64,000 nt of DNA from Sulfuricurvum sp. (lineage in GTDB: Bacteria; Campylobacterota; Campylobacteria; Campylobacterales; Sulfurimonadaceae), in contig NZ_JAQUHV010000001.1 of NCBI RefSeq assembly GCF_028681615.1, positions 1 to 64,000 of the forward strand, read 5' to 3'. A model generated the notes under the pieces. The model worked only from the letters and a program-made list of their open reading frames with translations. It did not search any database and had not been told where the DNA came from. Below, piece by piece: positions 23,170-30,870 of this stretch. How positions within the stretch are numbered: position 1 is the first letter of the stretch; every line of letters starts with the position of its first letter. The position numbers were made by a program, and so were the translations under genes.

Positions 23170-23183
23170 GAGGGATCACCCTC
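23170..23183. terminator. terminator between pgpA and the converging operon
   Basis: GAGGG / CCCTC with an ATCA loop, followed by TTATCTT on the plus strand. It lies in the short gap between convergent genes. Confidence 0.5.
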
Positions 23184-23188
23184 TTATC

Positions 23189-23680
23189 TTAAATATTCAA
23201 CGGATCGTCTGTCGGTTCAATCTCTTCAAAATCTTCAATAATTTGATCTAAAATCTTTTGAGTCATTTTGATCTTTGAAATATTTTCATCAAATATTGGT
23301 TTTGATGCAGGAAACGCTTCCGAGAGCTCTTGATAAATCAAAACGCGTCCCCCGAAATGACGGTTGAATTCATCAAACGCACTGCGTAAATATGCTTTTT
23401 TCGTTGTATGACGGAAAAGCGCTTTGATCATTTTTTTACGCTCTTTGATCGGAATCGATTCATCGATCGCTTCAGCTACCCGTTTAATATCCAAACGCGA
23501 TAAATAGGCACCGCAATGGTATGGAGACAACAATTTATCGGAGAGTTCATCAACGAATCCCGGAACCGGTTCTTCGTCAGGATCGGTCTCACTGCTCGTT
23601 TCACATGAACCCGTATCACATTTACCCCGCACAAATTCATCGAATTCGGCTCGTAAATCGCTGTAATCATTTTCTTTCAT
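23189..23680 (-). CDS. unknown protein, last gene of the molybdoenzyme operon
   Basis: 163 residues, not recognised. It is soluble, strongly acidic and mainly helical by composition. An N-terminal CDTGSCETSSETDPDEEP stretch contains two cysteines; a central basic patch reads KERKKMIKALFRHTTKKAYL; the C-terminus is acidic again. There is no signal peptide or catalytic motif. Its start overlaps the previous gene by four bases (ATGA) and all upstream genes back to torD are coupled or nearly so, which argues for a role in maturing or delivering the molybdoenzyme, perhaps as a chaperone. It may play the part that DUF3305/DUF3306 proteins play in formate dehydrogenase clusters elsewhere, but I see no sequence match to those. 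Confidence 0.75.
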   Translation of the reverse strand: MKENDYSDLRAEFDEFVRGKCDTGSCETSSETDPDEEPVPGFVDELSDKLLSPYHCGAYLSRLDIKRVAEAIDESIPIKERKKMIKALFRHTTKKAYLRSAFDEFNRHFGGRVLIYQELSEAFPASKPIFDENISKIKMTQKILDQIIEDFEEIEPTDDPLNI

Positions 23681-24120
23681 TCTTTGTCTCCTCGTATTAA
23701 GTCATAAAAATAGCGGCTTAGCGACCGCAGCGCAATATCGTCTTTAAAATCCTCACGCTCAGCATACTGTTCTAATGCCCTCGGCATGATCAAATCACCG
23801 GAGAGTTCATTGTTTTCAATCGTAATCAAATCAACTAAACCCTGTTCTTGTGCAAACTCCGATGCTGAATCTACCAAACTTAGTGCTTCAACTTGATATT
23901 CCGATCCGATCACAGCGCCGCTTAGTTTCGAATGCCTCATTTGAGAAATCGTAAAAACAACGTCATCGGGACGGATATTCATCGGAATCACCATTGCGTT
24001 AATCCCATCGGCTTTGAATAATTTATTCATCATCGATGAGAATCGGTTACTGTGTGCCTCTTCGGCAATAAAGCCGAAAAGTTTGGTCTCGACTGTAATC
24101 GAATTATCGTTGTTCATCAT
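23677..24120 (-). CDS. stand-alone protein resembling the substrate-binding half of shikimate dehydrogenase
   Basis: 147 residues. The first 90 residues (KLFGFIAEEAHSNRFSSMMN, then LFKADGINAMVIPMNIRPDD and MRHSKLSGAVIGSEYQ) follow the pattern of the AroE N-terminal domain, in which a small-molecule site is built from an IG-x4-SxSP loop and an alpha/beta core. The NADP-binding Rossmann half is absent and the catalytic Lys-Asp pair is not evident, so it is not a shikimate dehydrogenase. It overlaps both neighbours (17 and 4 bases), so its function should be tied to the polyferredoxin and molybdoenzyme genes. The relationship is judged by eye and is tentative. Confidence 0.7.
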   Translation of the reverse strand: MMNNDNSITVETKLFGFIAEEAHSNRFSSMMNKLFKADGINAMVIPMNIRPDDVVFTISQMRHSKLSGAVIGSEYQVEALSLVDSASEFAQEQGLVDLITIENNELSGDLIMPRALEQYAEREDFKDDIALRSLSRYFYDLIRGDKE

Positions 24121-25216
24121 TGTTCAGCCCCCATAATTCCATAGCTTCTTCCTCTTCCAAACGGCATCTGCGACAAATTTTCTCACCGCCTACAGAACTA
24201 AACATTGCGTCACACTCATTACATCGCCGTACCAAGTAGGTAACCAGATTTTGAACCGTCGGTGTATACCACTCTTTGAGATTATAGGATGGCGACACCG
24301 TTATCGCATCACTTTCACATACGTCATGACACAAATGGCATTTGACACATAAAAATGGGTCAAAGTCGATTTTCGAATTGCGCATATCAGAAGTTAATGC
24401 ACCCGTAGGGCAAATCCGATAACACATTTCGCATGCGGTGCATTTCGTTTCATCCAAAAGTTTTTGGGAGGTGAACGAAATCCGATCCCCTTCCACTACA
24501 TGATAGACCGAAGGCTTTTCTAGCCGTTTAAGAGCTGTAAAAAAAACTTTCCTTCGATCGGTAATTTTTTTGGTCCGCAACCCTTGGGTGTGAGTACTAT
24601 CTAGGGTATGTGATATATACTCATCTGTACTCATCTGTACTTCACGCTCAAAATTTGCTTTATACGCACCAATTTTTTTGAGATGAAACGTTTTAAAAAA
24701 ATCTCTTCTATCCGGTGTCGATTCGGATTTTTCACTCTCAGTATACGCTTCTTCAACTAGATCCACACTATACTCTGATTCTATCGCTTCAAGAGCATAA
24801 TTGACATTCTCTATACGTTCTCTAAGATCACGTAAAATTGACTCACCGATCGAACATGAACCGCAATGACCGATATCGAGTTTAAGCCCTTTTTTCATAC
24901 CGCACAATGCGATTAAGTGTTCACTCCCCAATGCTGCCAGACATGGTACATTTTTTTGACACGATACAAGCAGTGACGTATCACTCACAAAATCGAAGAA
25001 AAAATCGGTTGGACTGAAATCATCCAGTGCCAAAGCTTCTGTGGGACATGATGAAACACACCCTGCACACCCGACACATGTAGATTGGTTAATTGAAGGC
25101 AAACGACCACTCAGGACAATCGCACCGGTTGGACAAACATCGGCACATATTGTACAAATCGAATTGATACTGAGTGCGCGAACACATCGTGCGGGTGATA
25201 AACTCAGCAATCCCAT
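24104..25216 (-). CDS. polyferredoxin-like Fe-S protein with C-terminal zinc-ribbon-like knuckle
   Basis: 370 residues, cytoplasmic. Four 4Fe-4S motifs can be read: CTICADVCP and CVGCAGCVSSCP near the N-terminus (20-65), then CTACEMCYRICP and CVKCHLCHDVC in the second half. Between them are additional cysteines (ALCG and HCGSCSIGES), and the C-terminus has CNECDAMFSSVGGEKICRRC, a two-knuckle zinc-ribbon pattern. It lies six bases after torD and overlaps the next gene. Similar ferredoxins are found beside Tat-exported molybdoenzymes such as formate dehydrogenases, where they are thought to help cofactor assembly or electron supply; here the same is inferred. It has no signal peptide, so it is not a periplasmic subunit. 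Confidence 0.82.
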   Translation of the reverse strand: MGLLSLSPARCVRALSINSICTICADVCPTGAIVLSGRLPSINQSTCVGCAGCVSSCPTEALALDDFSPTDFFFDFVSDTSLLVSCQKNVPCLAALGSEHLIALCGMKKGLKLDIGHCGSCSIGESILRDLRERIENVNYALEAIESEYSVDLVEEAYTESEKSESTPDRRDFFKTFHLKKIGAYKANFEREVQMSTDEYISHTLDSTHTQGLRTKKITDRRKVFFTALKRLEKPSVYHVVEGDRISFTSQKLLDETKCTACEMCYRICPTGALTSDMRNSKIDFDPFLCVKCHLCHDVCESDAITVSPSYNLKEWYTPTVQNLVTYLVRRCNECDAMFSSVGGEKICRRCRLEEEEAMELWGLNNDEQR

Positions 25217-25222
25217 CTATTT

Positions 25223-25834
25223 TTAAACCTCTGCGCTCAAAGTTTCATTATCACTCAAAATAAATTCCAGTGCTGTTTCGGCTGCATCGTAATAAAGAGG
25301 CGTACGAGCTTCATACTTCATATTAATAAGATACATCGGTGCCCAACGAAGAAGATGGATATTTAAAAAACGGTGTTGTTCTTTTTTTAATTCTAGTACT
25401 GCTTCAGTATCATTTTCACTCAAAGCTTTTTTCTGTGCTTCGCATAAATGATGCATAAATTCAAACTCGATACCAATATGGTCTGATGATACGACACGTG
25501 CAACTTCATAATCAACTAAAAAGTCATATGCACTGTAAATATCCGTTACAGGGTTTGCGCCGCCTGTTTCAATCATCTGATCACTTCGGGTATAAAATGT
25601 TTCATACGGTACTAAATGCAAAATCGATAGATTCGTAAAGTCCGGATTCAGATACTCTTCCAATATCTCTTTATTCGGAAGATTTTTTCGCTGTTCCCAT
25701 GATTCCCAATGAGGAAAAAATTCTAAAACAGTCGGGTCATTTTTGAGTGTCTCTAAAATATCATTATCCAGTTCTTGGAGTAATATTCGAGATAGCAATG
25801 CGTAAATATTGCTTCGAGCAATGATCTCATCCAT
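25223..25834 (-). CDS. TorD-family molybdoenzyme chaperone
   Basis: 203 residues, all-helical, no cysteine and no signal peptide. It opens ARSNIYALLSRILLQELDND and contains PYETFYTRSD and the DHIGIEFEFMHHLCEAQ segment; that last one matches the family motif of the TorD/DmsD/NarJ superfamily (DHxxxELxFM). Such proteins bind the twin-arginine leader of their partner and hold it until the molybdenum cofactor is in place. The obvious client is the catalytic subunit encoded immediately upstream, but a strong hairpin terminator separates the two genes, so the chaperone group may also have its own promoter. Confidence 0.88.
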   Translation of the reverse strand: MDEIIARSNIYALLSRILLQELDNDILETLKNDPTVLEFFPHWESWEQRKNLPNKEILEEYLNPDFTNLSILHLVPYETFYTRSDQMIETGGANPVTDIYSAYDFLVDYEVARVVSSDHIGIEFEFMHHLCEAQKKALSENDTEAVLELKKEQHRFLNIHLLRWAPMYLINMKYEARTPLYYDAAETALEFILSDNETLSAEV

Positions 25835-25856
25835 AACGATTAAGCCTTTAAAAGTG

Positions 25857-25870
25857 ATTGTAGGATTGTA
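25857..25870 (-). promoter_or_regulatory. possible promoter elements of the torD group
   Basis: Two TACAAT hexamers on the minus strand (25865-25870 and 25857-25862) directly after the hairpin and about 25-35 bases before the torD start. Either could serve as a -10 element for the chaperone and accessory genes. Confidence 0.4.
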
Positions 25871-25871
25871 G

Positions 25872-25897
25872 CCTAAAGGGCTGAAAAGCCCTTTAGG
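25872..25897 (-). terminator. hairpin between catalytic subunit and torD
   Basis: CCTAAAGGGCT / AGCCCTTTAGG, a perfect eleven-pair stem with a four-base loop. There is no long T-run on the minus strand, so it may attenuate read-through or protect the 3' end of the enzyme message, lowering chaperone relative to enzyme. Confidence 0.65.
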
Positions 25898-25926
25898 TGT
25901 CCTTATTAGAAAGAGAAGCAGAAAAT

Positions 25927-28900
25927 TTAGCTCTTGATGTTTACATCATACGAGGTAGGATCAAGTTTAACCCACGGGCGGAAAATGTGTTTCGGACGGC
26001 GAAGTTTGGAATTTGAATCCAAACCGCGTGTAAGTTTATCTCTCCATGCTTGATACACTTTCATATTATTGTCGTAATTGACAAAAATATCTCCGATTTT
26101 ATCTCCCGCTTGTGCCGGTTCAAGCAATACTTTTTGGTGCCAGCAGTGCATTCCCGAAACCGGGTCTGGATGCGGAGCCGCTACCGCATTTTGCCATGAA
26201 CCGGAGAGTCCGTCCCACCATACGTTTTCAGAGTCACGGTTGTATTCAGCGAAGCGTTCCGCTTTAAACCCTTTGATTCCCTCAACGTATTTGAGTTTGC
26301 CCTCTTTGCCGTCCATTTGAATTTCTGCGACTGGAACCCCGAAACTGTTGATACCGGTTGTACCGCTATAATCATCAATTTTGGTTTGAGCACCTTCTTT
26401 ACCGACATTTACAGGAGATTCAGCCAAGAATTCTTTATTCGTTAGATCTCTTGGTGCAACACCTGGTGCTACTTTACCGTCAGATACACCATTTGGAATG
26501 GTAACTGCATTGGTCAATTTCCAGCGTCCGCCATGATGTGAACATGCCAATGTTCCCGGTAAAACACCCTCTGTCGGTATTGCCATAGCAACAAAATGTC
26601 CGCTTTCCAATCCCGAAACCGTATCTACGATTCGAACACGAATCGCATCTCCGCGTTTAAATCCAAGGCGTGCGGCATCTTTCGTAGAAATCCAGATCGG
26701 GTCATGGTTTTGACTGATCTCCATTAGATGTTTAGAGTTTGCAGAACGCGTATGAATGTTATACGGTAAACGGAATACCGTATTGAGCGCAAAAGAGTTC
26801 TCTTCTTTCATATAGACATGATTGACGTGTGAAAGGATATGAACCATTTCCTCTTTCTCTTTGTCATTACGAGGATAGATCGCCATAGCATATTCCGGCC
26901 ATTTCCAATCTTTTGCCACCCATTGAGTATAGACATCGAGTTTACGTGTAGGAGTCGTAAATCCTTGCACTTTTTTACCGTCTACTACAATACCGATTTT
27001 TTTCGAGTCGCCTTTGTCATCCACCGCACTGATGATACCTGCAGAGTCCACACTCATCGAACCTGCATCGTATTTATGCTCATACGATTCAACTTTTCCC
27101 TCTTCGATTTTGAGTTCACGTTCTTGGACATTGTAGATTTTATCCTCTTCGAGCCAAGTACCGTGATCACGCATATATGAATAAACCGGGAATTCATCGT
27201 TTGCATAGCGTTCGTCGTTCATAACAGTTTCGTGCAATTTAGGTAAATTATCCCCGAACGCTGCATCGTACCATTCAGCGATGGTGACCGGTTTACCTGG
27301 ATTGCGTTTTGATTCCCACATTTGTTTAATGTTCAAACTACCATCCGGATCGATGTAGTTAACACATAAGTCAAACATGAACTCATTCTCTTCCCAAACT
27401 TCTCCAAGACCAGCTTTGATGTGTGCTTCAAGAGTCGCACGATTTGGGTTTTTAGGTTTCCACCCCGACTTTTCGAGAGCTACACGTAATACCGGTTGAC
27501 GGAAAGATGTCCATCGTGCCGGAATTGTTGCTTCAGAATGTTGGTCGTGACGTTCACCCGCAAGTCCAGTTGGAAGAACATAGTCCATATACCAGTTAGT
27601 CTCAGACCATACCGGAGAAAGATTAACGGTTAATTCCATAATTTCTTCATTTTTCAACACTTCAAGCCAACGGAATCCATCCGGATTGATCCAAACCGGA
27701 TTGTACATACGAGGCATATACACAGCAAGTTTGCTCGGCACTTGCAACCCGCGATCATTCCATTTTTTCTGCCACTCTTTGTCACTTAGCAAATGAGGGA
27801 GCAAGAATGAAAGCTCATACGTTGACAAAGGCCATTCAGGAGGCCATGTCAATTCATTCCAAGCTTTTACTTTCGGAACGTCTTTACCAGATTTTCCTTG
27901 ACCAACCGTTGCACTTCCACCTTTTCCGCCGACAGCTATGTCATGCCAGTGATACCAACCCGTTCCACCGACATTTCCGATAGCACCGCGTAACCCGGTA
28001 ACAAAGAAAACCGATTTACCATTCATCCAACCACCGCGGTTACCGGCTGCTGTTGCACGCCAAACATAGGTAGAAATCGCATCTTCAGCCCAAATAAACA
28101 TTTCATAGAGTTTTTCAAGCTTATATGCCGGTATGTGAGTCTCTTTGACCGCAAATTCTAGGGTATACGGAGAATACATATCTTTTAATAGCTCTAAATA
28201 GCTCTCAAAATCACGTCCGGCAGGAAGTTTTGAAATATAGGTTTTCTCAACCATATAATTGAGATATTCGCTATCGTTCATCAATGTTTCCCAGTTGAAC
28301 CATCGTTTTACAAATGCTTTATTAACTTTATTTTCATGCAAAATACGATTTGCCAAATAAAGATAAATCGCCGACTCTGTTCCCGGCCATGGAGCCAACC
28401 AAAGATCGGCGATCCCTGCAGAGTTTGAAAGGCGCGGGTCCATAACGACCATTTTCGCACCTTTTTTACGAGCATCAGCAATCATTCCGGCAGCTTGCTG
28501 AAAATAGTGGCCAGCATCTGCAGCATGCGATGAATTCAAGAAAATCAATTTCGCATTTGCCCAGTCTGGGCTGGTACGGTCATCATTTACAAAATGAATT
28601 GACGGTGTACGTCCGTTAGCCGAACAGATATTGGTATGAGAATTGTATGAATCCAGACCCAACGTCTCCCAAACTTTAGGAACAAATCCATTCTCATTCG
28701 GTCGTCCGATATGATACATAACCGATTTGCGAGAAAGTTCATCTCCTTTTCGGATCGTATCACCCATTTTTTTACCGATCGTGGTCATCGCTTCGTCCCA
28801 CGTCGTACGAATCCATTTTCCTTCACCCCGTTTTGAACCCGGAGCACGTTTGAGTGGGAACGGAATACGATCCGGATCATACATTTGCGATTGTGCGGCA

Positions 28901-29322
28901 TACCCTTTTGCACAGTTGCGTCCGCGTGACCCCGCATGGAGCGGATTTCCCATATATTTTCGTACCGTCAATGTTTTTTTATCAACCCATGCAGTCAAAC
29001 CGCATGATGCTTCACAGTTTGAACATGCAGTCGGAATAAGCATGAAATCGTGCACTAAAATACCGTCAGGGTTCTCTTCACTTCGTACACCATGACGATT
29101 AATACCACCGCGTTTCCAATCGGTACCGTCAAGCTCTTGGAAGTTATCCCACTGATCAAGCGGAGGATAAAATGACAAGGTATCAGGTGTATTGGTAAAT
29201 TTACTTGCTTTCACCGACTCTGCCACTGCGTCGGTTGAAAATACACCCTTCGCTATAGCGGCACCGGCTACAGTGAGAGCGGTCCCTTTTAAAAATGTTC
29301 TTCTGCTTTCTAAATACATCAT
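25927..29322 (-). CDS. Tat-exported molybdopterin oxidoreductase, catalytic subunit (PsrA/SoeA-like)
   Basis: 1131 residues, a large DMSO-reductase family enzyme. The leader has SRRTFLKGTALTVAGAAIAKG, a twin-arginine signal. A 4Fe-4S site follows: Cys100, Cys103, Cys107 and Cys137 (CX2CX3CX29C, ending GRNCAKG). The likely molybdenum ligand is Cys233 in NSHTNICSANGR, which speaks for the polysulfide/thiosulfate/nitrate-type branch rather than the Ser-ligated DMSO/TMAO type. The C-terminal domain includes DAARLGFKRGDAIRVR. With a four-cluster Fe-S subunit and an NrfD anchor it forms a quinone-linked periplasmic enzyme. The substrate cannot be fixed from sequence: polysulfide, thiosulfate, tetrathionate and sulfite are all possible. 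Length exceeds PsrA by several hundred residues. Confidence 0.85.
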   Translation of the reverse strand: MMYLESRRTFLKGTALTVAGAAIAKGVFSTDAVAESVKASKFTNTPDTLSFYPPLDQWDNFQELDGTDWKRGGINRHGVRSEENPDGILVHDFMLIPTACSNCEASCGLTAWVDKKTLTVRKYMGNPLHAGSRGRNCAKGYAAQSQMYDPDRIPFPLKRAPGSKRGEGKWIRTTWDEAMTTIGKKMGDTIRKGDELSRKSVMYHIGRPNENGFVPKVWETLGLDSYNSHTNICSANGRTPSIHFVNDDRTSPDWANAKLIFLNSSHAADAGHYFQQAAGMIADARKKGAKMVVMDPRLSNSAGIADLWLAPWPGTESAIYLYLANRILHENKVNKAFVKRWFNWETLMNDSEYLNYMVEKTYISKLPAGRDFESYLELLKDMYSPYTLEFAVKETHIPAYKLEKLYEMFIWAEDAISTYVWRATAAGNRGGWMNGKSVFFVTGLRGAIGNVGGTGWYHWHDIAVGGKGGSATVGQGKSGKDVPKVKAWNELTWPPEWPLSTYELSFLLPHLLSDKEWQKKWNDRGLQVPSKLAVYMPRMYNPVWINPDGFRWLEVLKNEEIMELTVNLSPVWSETNWYMDYVLPTGLAGERHDQHSEATIPARWTSFRQPVLRVALEKSGWKPKNPNRATLEAHIKAGLGEVWEENEFMFDLCVNYIDPDGSLNIKQMWESKRNPGKPVTIAEWYDAAFGDNLPKLHETVMNDERYANDEFPVYSYMRDHGTWLEEDKIYNVQERELKIEEGKVESYEHKYDAGSMSVDSAGIISAVDDKGDSKKIGIVVDGKKVQGFTTPTRKLDVYTQWVAKDWKWPEYAMAIYPRNDKEKEEMVHILSHVNHVYMKEENSFALNTVFRLPYNIHTRSANSKHLMEISQNHDPIWISTKDAARLGFKRGDAIRVRIVDTVSGLESGHFVAMAIPTEGVLPGTLACSHHGGRWKLTNAVTIPNGVSDGKVAPGVAPRDLTNKEFLAESPVNVGKEGAQTKIDDYSGTTGINSFGVPVAEIQMDGKEGKLKYVEGIKGFKAERFAEYNRDSENVWWDGLSGSWQNAVAAPHPDPVSGMHCWHQKVLLEPAQAGDKIGDIFVNYDNNMKVYQAWRDKLTRGLDSNSKLRRPKHIFRPWVKLDPTSYDVNIKS

Positions 29323-29332
29323 AATTTACCTC

Positions 29333-30232
29333 TTAGCTCATATTTAACAATTGTGGAATAACGAGCCAAACATGTTTGCTCACCCACAAACCGACCAATG
29401 CCGATACGGCAGCGATTTTCAACAAATAATACGATTTGTTTTTCAAGCTCAAGCATACTAATGCCATCGGAGCCAAGAATGCCATTACTTGGCCGATCCA
29501 GAACATTGCAGTGTATTCACCGCCTTTGACAAAAGCCAAGGTTGCAGCAACCTCTTCGGCTTTCATACCACCGAAAATATACTCAGACATATAAAGGACA
29601 AAGGCAGCGAATGCACTTAAACCTAAAATAATGGCGAGATCTTTTTTGATTGCATCTGAAAATTTGTTTCCGCCAAGCAAAATCATTGTTGCAGAACCTG
29701 CCAAAAATGCCGCCAACATCATTTGTGCCGATTCAGTTGGCATTTGCCACAATTCGCGTGCTGTTGATTCTGCCATCAAAGCTGCGGTATACAATGTAAC
29801 CGGAATTGCCAGCAATACTGTCCACCCGAGCAATTTATCGTACATTGCTTCATCTTTTTTAAGATAGATCGCATACGCCATTGCAAAGAGAAGTCCGACA
29901 AACCCTGTCGCCATCCACGCACCGATCGTAATTGCCGATGTCAAATGAGGATGGGCAAAAATATGCCAGAAACGGAACATTTGATGTAAATCAATGACCG
30001 TAAAGAATAAGAAGACATGGATAAATACAATCGAAATTGCTACAGCCGGAAAACGGATAAAACCGGTTTGCTCCGGATATTTTTTCAACAAGAAAAATGC
30101 GAGGAAAATAATACCGGTACCGATACTTTTCGCCCACATATTCATCGTAATAATCCAGCCCCAAAAAATAGCCGGTAATGGAACGTCAAGAACTACGATC
30201 GCATTGGTTGCCGCAAGTGTTTCGTGTACCAT
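29333..30232 (-). CDS. NrfD/PsrC-type membrane anchor subunit
   Basis: 299 residues with about eight or nine hydrophobic helices. It begins ETLAATNAIVVLDVPLPAIFWGW and carries family-like segments such as GAWMATGFVGLLFAMAYAIY. NrfD-type subunits have no haem; they exchange electrons between menaquinone and the four-cluster Fe-S subunit. Its start codon shares one base with the stop of the Fe-S gene (TAATG) and its stop is 10 bases before the catalytic gene. The anchor completes a three-subunit complex of the polysulfide reductase type, and the menaquinone gene mqnE in this window provides the likely quinone partner. Confidence 0.88.
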   Translation of the reverse strand: MVHETLAATNAIVVLDVPLPAIFWGWIITMNMWAKSIGTGIIFLAFFLLKKYPEQTGFIRFPAVAISIVFIHVFLFFTVIDLHQMFRFWHIFAHPHLTSAITIGAWMATGFVGLLFAMAYAIYLKKDEAMYDKLLGWTVLLAIPVTLYTAALMAESTARELWQMPTESAQMMLAAFLAGSATMILLGGNKFSDAIKKDLAIILGLSAFAAFVLYMSEYIFGGMKAEEVAATLAFVKGGEYTAMFWIGQVMAFLAPMALVCLSLKNKSYYLLKIAAVSALVGLWVSKHVWLVIPQLLNMS

Positions 30233-30870
30233 TAGTGGTGCCCTCCTAGAGGAAGATGGGTCAACTTGTTAAATAGGTTATGACCTTCGCCGCGGAATGA
30301 TGCCAACGGATTGAGTTGAACGTTGCCGCCGCCGACATAGAAGTGGTGTGGATCAGTCCCTTTTTCAGGTTTACGAACTTGTACGTCACCTTGGTGCTGT
30401 TGAATATATTTACTGATGTTGGAGGTCGGATCATCCAAATCACCGAAAATATTTGCCTCTACCGGACATGCTACGACACATGATGGCATCATTGCACTTG
30501 CAATACGATGCGCACAGTAGGTACATTTATCTGCCGTTTGTGTTTGAGGATCAATATAGATCGCACCGTACGGACATGCCATAACACATCCTGCACATCC
30601 AATACAACGTTCTTTGTCAATATTAACAATTCCGTTTTCGATATAGTGCAATGCACTTACCGGACAAATACGTTCACACGGTGCATTGGCACAGTGATTA
30701 CAACGAAGCGGAGTAAATGTTCGCTTCGTTTCAGGGAAAGTTCCCACATCGATATATTTTACACGAAGACGCCATGTACTAAGCGGAACTTCGTTTTCCA
30801 CTTTACACGCAATCTCACAGCCCTTACACCCCATGCAAAGGTGAAGGTCTACCAAGAAACCTAACTGCAT
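30232..30870 (-). CDS. four-cluster Fe-S subunit of the molybdoenzyme (PsrB/DmsB type)
   Basis: 212 residues without a leader; it is probably exported bound to the catalytic subunit. Four cysteine groups are typical: CMGCKGCEIAC, CNHCANAPCERICP, CIGCAGCVMACP and CTYCAHRIASAMMPSCVVACP. The third group begins a predicted cluster chain from the molybdenum site to the membrane anchor. It is the first gene of the operon, preceded by AAGGAG, which is an unusual order since catalytic genes often come first in psrABC and soeABC. The C-terminal 60 residues after the last cluster are Gly/His-rich (GGGNVQLNPL, LPLGGHH). Confidence 0.92.
   Translation of the reverse strand: MQLGFLVDLHLCMGCKGCEIACKVENEVPLSTWRLRVKYIDVGTFPETKRTFTPLRCNHCANAPCERICPVSALHYIENGIVNIDKERCIGCAGCVMACPYGAIYIDPQTQTADKCTYCAHRIASAMMPSCVVACPVEANIFGDLDDPTSNISKYIQQHQGDVQVRKPEKGTDPHHFYVGGGNVQLNPLASFRGEGHNLFNKLTHLPLGGHH

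Follow-up and report, generated by a model that had tools for sequence, protein, structure and literature searches.

TorD-family chaperones are established maturases of molybdenum enzymes. NapF, a cytoplasmic four-cluster ferredoxin, is needed in vitro to reconstitute the cluster of NapA (PMC10609526). In the arx operon of the anaerobic arsenite oxidase, the polyferredoxin-like protein ArxB2 was called arx-specific and its role unclear (PMC6549141). Every Sulfurimonas sequenced is reported to have PsrA, and Sulfuricurvum stands close by (PMC4584964). Here we describe a seven-gene locus of Sulfuricurvum sp., located on the minus strand at positions 23189-30870 of a 64,000-nucleotide stretch of contig NZ_JAQUHV010000001.1 (the window). 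It encodes an exported molybdoenzyme with an Fe-S subunit (feS), an NrfD-type anchor (nrfD) and a catalytic subunit (moA), together with four helpers: a TorD-family chaperone, a polyferredoxin, an AroE-like protein and an acidic protein. We consider it fairly probable that the four helpers form a dedicated cytoplasmic maturation unit for a periplasm-facing, quinone-linked moA-feS pair on NrfD. The helper set probably builds the metal centers of the enzyme before export.

The association of helpers and enzyme was analyzed in 180 genomes of the class and in 161 genomes of the family Sulfurimonadaceae. In the class scan, moA was found in 26 genomes and the polyferredoxin gene in those same 26. 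The acidic protein is encoded in 25 of them; in the 26th, a contig end lies within the polyferredoxin gene. In the class genomes beyond the 26, only a weak paralogue of the acidic protein was present, adjoining a type II enzyme (G134). Fisher's test gave a p of about 1e-30, where the related genomes counted are not independent. An earlier note on this DNA, made from the sequence alone, had assigned three accessory proteins beyond TorD to the enzyme, and indeed the trio does not occur mostly without a molybdoenzyme. In the family scan, moA was detected in 148 genomes (120/125 of the high-quality ones); 141 genomes carried both moA and the acidic protein gene and nine carried neither (p 4e-8). 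In several of the discordant genomes the matches run into contig ends. In two 99%-complete family genomes (G208 and G218), moA, polyferredoxin and acidic protein were all not found.

The acidic protein gene lies at most 9 kb from moA in 78 family genomes and on a separate contig in 53. In ten genomes both genes are found on one contig, 20 kb to 1.5 Mb apart; nine of these ten are on genome-length contigs, with 170 kb to 1.5 Mb between the quartet and the enzyme genes. The quartet of torD, polyferredoxin, AroE-like and acidic genes was intact in all ten unlinked genomes (10/10) and adjoins pgpA-sat in eight of them. Thus, TorD goes with the trio and not with the enzyme genes, which is the strongest reason to regard the trio as maturation factors and argues for this role over that of extra subunits. 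The earlier count of three accessories beyond TorD holds for the tie of the trio to the enzyme, and TorD itself belongs to the same travelling quartet. For ArxB2, a putative role as small subunit of arsenite oxidase has been described (PMC6683785), and the polyferredoxin, perhaps with other helpers, might likewise be a true subunit of the mature enzyme. However, neither a Tat (twin-arginine translocation) nor a Sec signal was seen, a separate Fe-S subunit is already encoded by feS, and in many genomes the quartet lies apart from the structural genes. We therefore regard a subunit role as improbable. An N-terminal Tat motif was found in none of the helper proteins.

The quartet keeps its place beside pgpA-sat in many genomes, and position alone might be what is conserved. 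That the neighborhood reflects inherited inertia with no functional tie is nevertheless hardly credible in view of the joint absence of the genes and their retention despite long-range separation. Sat (ATP sulfurylase) was considered as a functional partner and rejected, since its proximity tracks the position of the quartet also in genomes that have the enzyme genes at another place. The genus review of Sulfurimonas places Sat in assimilation (PMC4584964), and in light of both points Sat was not used as a clue to the substrate. One genome contains a second, broken acidic gene with two in-frame TGA codons (G176:C11:254641-254883), ~3 kb beyond the intact copy.

All seven open reading frames were confirmed in the order given by the earlier note (Table 1). 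Pfam matches in the window agree with it (Fer4, NrfD, molybdopterin/Fe4S4 and dinucleotide-binding domains for moA, Nitrate_red_del, Fer4 and Shikimate_dh_N). The gene order recurs across dozens of genomes, so the array is not due to chance. From feS to the acidic gene, the spacings are -1, +10, +92, +6, -17 and -4 nt. The genes had been described as tightly coupled, which is the case within feS-nrfD-moA and from torD to the acidic gene, but not across the 92-nt gap between moA and torD, which contains a 12-pair hairpin. Because of this gap and its hairpin, the locus is best divided into a structural module, feS-nrfD-moA, and a helper module behind it that comprises torD and the polyferredoxin, AroE-like and acidic genes. 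In the loci of relatives, the quartet genes mostly overlap or touch each other, and the moA-torD spacing is 2-764 nt, except in two loci. The sequence 25832-25929 folds 3.3 standard deviations below shuffles (z=-3.3), and comparable hairpins are present in the moA-torD gap of several relatives. The hairpin, whose stem was listed on the plus strand in the hairpin scan, might be an attenuator or a processing site separating the modules. A short, terminator-like hairpin (23170-23183, plus-strand scan) is located between the convergent pgpA and acidic genes.

Table 1. Features of the molybdoenzyme locus in the Sulfuricurvum sp. window (aa, amino acids).
Feature	Position	Strand	Product or description
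feS	30870-30232	-	212 aa; Fe-S subunit, four-cluster ferredoxin, TtrB/PsrB/NrfC type
nrfD	30232-29333	-	299 aa; NrfD-type membrane anchor; PF03916 E=8e-12
moA	29322-25927	-	1131 aa; catalytic Mo/W-bisPGD subunit (bisPGD, bis-pyranopterin guanine dinucleotide); PF00384, PF04879, PF01568
moA-torD gap hairpin	25871-25898	-	12-pair stem
torD	25834-25223	-	203 aa; TorD/NarJ-family chaperone; PF02613 E=4.5e-14
polyferredoxin gene	25216-24104	-	370 aa; four [4Fe-4S] motifs; Fer4 families
AroE-like gene	24120-23677	-	147 aa; N-terminal lobe; PF08501 (Shikimate_dh_N) E 1.8e-6
acidic protein gene	23680-23189	-	163 aa; all-helical, family-less

The moA product carries the Tat motif SRRTFLKG and a weak match to the Pfam family TAT_signal; an N-terminal Tat motif is present in 96/96 moA relatives. 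The Cys set of the cubane domain is present. Cys233 is invariant in 13 relatives and aligns with a Cys of PhsA, ArxA and NapA. Judged from this alignment it is likely the Mo ligand, at a position common to the three proteins which therefore does not discriminate between them. The feS product matches Fer4_11 (E=2e-21), has no export signal of its own and is 84-98% identical among the Sulfurimonadaceae loci compared; its best NCBIfam match is TtrB (203.4 bits, cut-off 416). The nrfD gene is the single NrfD hit of the genome, and the moA enzyme the only NrfD-type enzyme found there. Against the PhsA model, moA scored 134.7 bits and did not reach the cut-off of 694. In the phylogenetic tree, the moA clade is fully supported and includes sequences from Aquificota and Myxococcota; elsewhere in the tree, long branches make the placement unsure. 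The sister group of the moA clade is formed by proteins that lack a Tat motif at the N-terminus and come from Rhodococcus, Thermomicrobium and Natrinema; next follows an Azoarcus plasmid enzyme. ArxA is found on a separate branch. The loci of relatives lacking the motif, L140 (Rhodococcus jostii RHA1 pRHL3), L141 and L142 (Natrinema), encode Fe-S and NrfD parts as one fused subunit and have an Mrp/NBP35 gene after it. DsrE and TusA genes precede the enzyme in Rhodococcus, and rhodanese and TauE genes in one Natrinema. Some records (moA in L143 and L124, type II genes in G145, G036 and G031) have the catalytic gene split in two overlapping or adjoining frames, which are frameshifts or assembly errors.

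Because of the matching distribution, the moA enzyme is probably the PsrABC of the Sulfurimonas papers. The earlier note had spoken of an unknown substrate. This is right in that the physiological reaction is only inferred, but the enzyme probably already has a name. Clade and context allow the guess that it turns over sulfur compounds. Membership of moA in the MOLY cluster of sulfur disproportionation was rejected, since the published full cluster occurs only in Desulfobacterota. Identity with PsrA1 of Sulfurovum was considered, but PsrA1 is said to occur in all Sulfurovum, whereas moA was not found in G003, another genome sampled from the group (f4) that holds the Sulfurovum-like loci.

The torD product, encoded next to the Mo enzyme, matches Nitrate_red_del with 53.1 bits (cut-off 22.2). 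The polyferredoxin contains two ferredoxin-type Cys sets per half, and these four [4Fe-4S] motifs are invariant across the family. Four more invariant Cys are found in the middle domain, and the C-terminus carries a Cys4 knuckle (CxxC-CxxC). The NapF model was matched with 40.3 bits, which does not reach its cut-off of 102.2. The linker between the two ferredoxin halves (residues 143-215) is poorly conserved. Across 71 homologues, conservation of at least 85% is reached there at two Arg only, after which comes x-[FL]-[LF]; in the window protein this is an internal RRxFF at residues 170-174. The pattern RRx[FL][FLI] was found beyond residue 60 in 68/69 polyferredoxin homologues versus 1.1% of 1265 other proteins, and within residues 136-230 in 66/69, compared to 0.8 expected on shuffling. 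In Aquificota polyferredoxins, a hydrophobic stretch follows the internal twin-arginine-like motif. Our hypothesis is that the internal motif binds TorD. More speculatively, the motif [SDN]RRx[FL][LF] might be a mimic of the Tat signal that docks TorD or the Tat gate. It would thereby assemble chaperone, cluster donor and pre-enzyme, and the degenerate shikimate dehydrogenase lobe and the helical protein would complete a hitherto undescribed four-part complex for metallocenter loading, serving a core enzyme of Sulfurimonadaceae. This extended version we hold to be unlikely.

The invariant cluster motifs would also suit an electron donor, which could serve reductive activation before export or feed in electrons from a cytoplasmic reductant, with the other two genes tuning the process. 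In E. coli, HydN and YsaA are ferredoxin-like partners of formate dehydrogenase H that were read as alternative electron routes (PMC6004506). However, moA is exported via Tat and NrfD gives a quinone route, so a cytoplasmic ferredoxin is unneeded for turnover, and the polyferredoxin gene travels with torD rather than with the enzyme genes. A donor function thus appears doubtful. The earlier note had left the choice between a maturation and an electron-supply route. Maturation is favored, as TorD moves with the trio, while NrfD as the quinone anchor and the absence of export signals on the helpers make a supply of electrons during turnover unlikely. The note had also pointed out that known psr, phs, ttr and soe operons lack the last three genes. 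The polyferredoxin is not unique, as arxB2, with the same layout, adjoins the TorD gene arxD in arx, and NapF is a functional precedent.

The AroE-like protein matches PF08501 above the curated cut-off. The window copy has no NAD(P)-binding domain and consists of the N-terminal lobe, in line with the earlier description as an AroE-like half. This truncation is, however, lineage-specific, and many relatives have the full two-domain fold. For a full-length relative (277 aa, L067), a structure was predicted with a pLDDT (predicted local distance difference test) of 90, and Foldseek matched it to AroE with a TM (template modeling) score of about 0.8. In contrast to AroE, the column of the catalytic Lys holds Q, A, S, R, W, G or V in 34/34 relatives, and the Rossmann half has been lost several times. 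Full-length and N-domain-only forms require at least 4-5 changes on the polyferredoxin tree, and on the assumption that the two-domain fold is older these are mostly losses. A separate AroE-like gene of the genome scored 197.2 bits, just under the cut-off of 200.2, and has the K and NTD motifs. As the helper lacks the catalytic Lys and was repeatedly truncated, oxidoreductase activity is unlikely. Retention of the N-lobe alone makes a scaffold or ligand-binding role likelier than redox chemistry. The acidic protein matched no family in Pfam, NCBIfam or PHROG, as anticipated by its label of unknown acidic protein. Seven helices and nothing but helix are predicted (AlphaFold2 mean pLDDT 85), and a fold search against the PDB gave nothing with E below 0.001. 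Among the four helpers, two are of kinds not earlier tied to molybdenum enzymes.

Besides moA, the genome (G000) encodes another exported Mo enzyme, which belongs to the type II family and has its own TorD and polyferredoxin (C28:153-3038 and C22:23970-25419; L135, L145). Across families of the class, its homologues show 73-84% identity. In Aquificota (L112, L120) and Myxococcota (L114, L116, L119), the type II enzyme is located directly upstream of feS-nrfD-moA(-torD-polyferredoxin). These two-molybdoenzyme loci comprise a NarH-like subunit, a heme-b/cytochrome c subunit and a rhodanese. Rhodanese, together with a FadL-type porin in Aquificota, points to sulfur chemistry, which we take as a lead only. 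Within Campylobacterota, moA and type II enzymes are at separate loci. Short acidic paralogues adjoin the type II cluster, where an LRV repeat protein and, in part of the genomes, an Mrp-type ATPase are also encoded. The quartet could serve the type II enzyme as well, and thus more than a single exported molybdoenzyme. Adjoining positions in Aquificota and Myxococcota and co-occurrence in Campylobacterota (14/18, Fisher p 9e-11) would fit, as would the TorD and polyferredoxin paralogues of the type II cluster and the acidic paralogue nearby in several genomes. Nevertheless, 12 of the 26 moA genomes keep the quartet without a type II enzyme, and we give such a shared service little probability.

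For the dedicated maturation unit we infer the following course of cluster loading and complex formation. TorD would hold the Tat signal and the core of apo-moA. The polyferredoxin, in a NapF-like manner, would load or keep reduced the [4Fe-4S] cluster(s) of the pre-enzyme, and the AroE-like lobe and the acidic helical protein may act as non-catalytic scaffolds in the pre-export complex. The moA-feS pair would then be released to Tat and dock on NrfD. Several points weigh against this scheme. The tie between helpers and enzyme is a genomic one, and co-occurrence cannot separate cluster loading from reductive activation or regulation. AroE-like and acidic genes were not found beside torD-polyferredoxin in the Aquificota loci, so these two helpers are not universally needed. 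Outside the cluster motifs, the likeness of polyferredoxin and ArxB2 is marginal (E 0.003 and 0.02), and NapF is dispensable in some bacteria (PMC10609526).

The moA enzyme is near-universal in the sampled Sulfurimonadaceae. Members of this family are abundant in redox zones and vents, and the source organism is sulfur-oxidizing. A maturation unit moving as one block together with its chaperone offers a direct genetic handle on cluster delivery to such enzymes, and the polyferredoxin parallel gives ArxB2 a testable role. Moreover, shikimate dehydrogenase, a metabolic fold, was apparently recruited as a non-catalytic part.

Compared to known systems, the locus shares with PsrABC and PhsABC a Tat-signalled Mo-bisPGD catalytic subunit with the aligned Mo-ligand Cys, a four-cluster Fe-S subunit and a membrane anchor. 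It differs in its 1131-aa moA, which is 24% identical over half the length, in the order B-C-A and in the four helper genes; according to a review, the Psr operon has no chaperone gene. TtrB is the top curated match of feS and TtrC matches the anchor, but the scores for TtrA, TtrB and TtrC (48.1, 203.4 and 24.9 bits) stay below the cut-offs of 1750, 416 and 314. NapF, which acts with NapD, is likewise a cytoplasmic multi-cluster ferredoxin in the maturation of an exported Mo enzyme, and the E. coli protein starts with VKIDASRRGIL, a twin-arginine-like motif. It differs in size (164 aa), architecture and partner, which is NapD and not TorD. In alphaproteobacterial formate dehydrogenase loci (L156, L157), a large 4Fe-4S protein, the FDH3-associated Fe-S protein, is encoded near TorD and a Mo enzyme, with Mrp in the Sulfitobacter locus. 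This is possibly a parallel accessory set, although the protein has 654-656 aa, no twin-arginine motif and marginal similarity outside the clusters.

The arx operon (arxB2ABCD) has in common with the locus an NrfD-anchored exported enzyme, a TorD protein (ArxD) and the polyferredoxin-like ArxB2. The identity of the catalytic subunit is 23-27% and covers part of its length, AroE-like and acidic genes are not annotated in arx, and AioXSR-type regulators are absent from the moA locus. An NrfD-type Mo operon on a plasmid of Azoarcus sp. KH32C (L144) adjoins arsenic genes and AioXSR-type regulators. After torD come genes for DUF309, HisF-like, rhodanese-like and polyferredoxin proteins, whereas the two other plasmids have the order arxB2ABCD. 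The polyferredoxin layout is shared by the ArxB2 genes at L153 6497-7642 and L155 8923-9966, including the C-terminal Cys4 and the internal motif, RRxFF in Sulfuricella and RRxLF in Cereibacter. In the gene next to arxA, the motif reads GRRAFF in Sulfuricella; close variants are ARRRLF in Cereibacter and GRRQLF in the Azoarcus plasmid operon. Homology between ArxB2 and the polyferredoxin beyond the cluster motifs is suggested rather than proven, and ArxB2 may serve in maturation instead of being a subunit.

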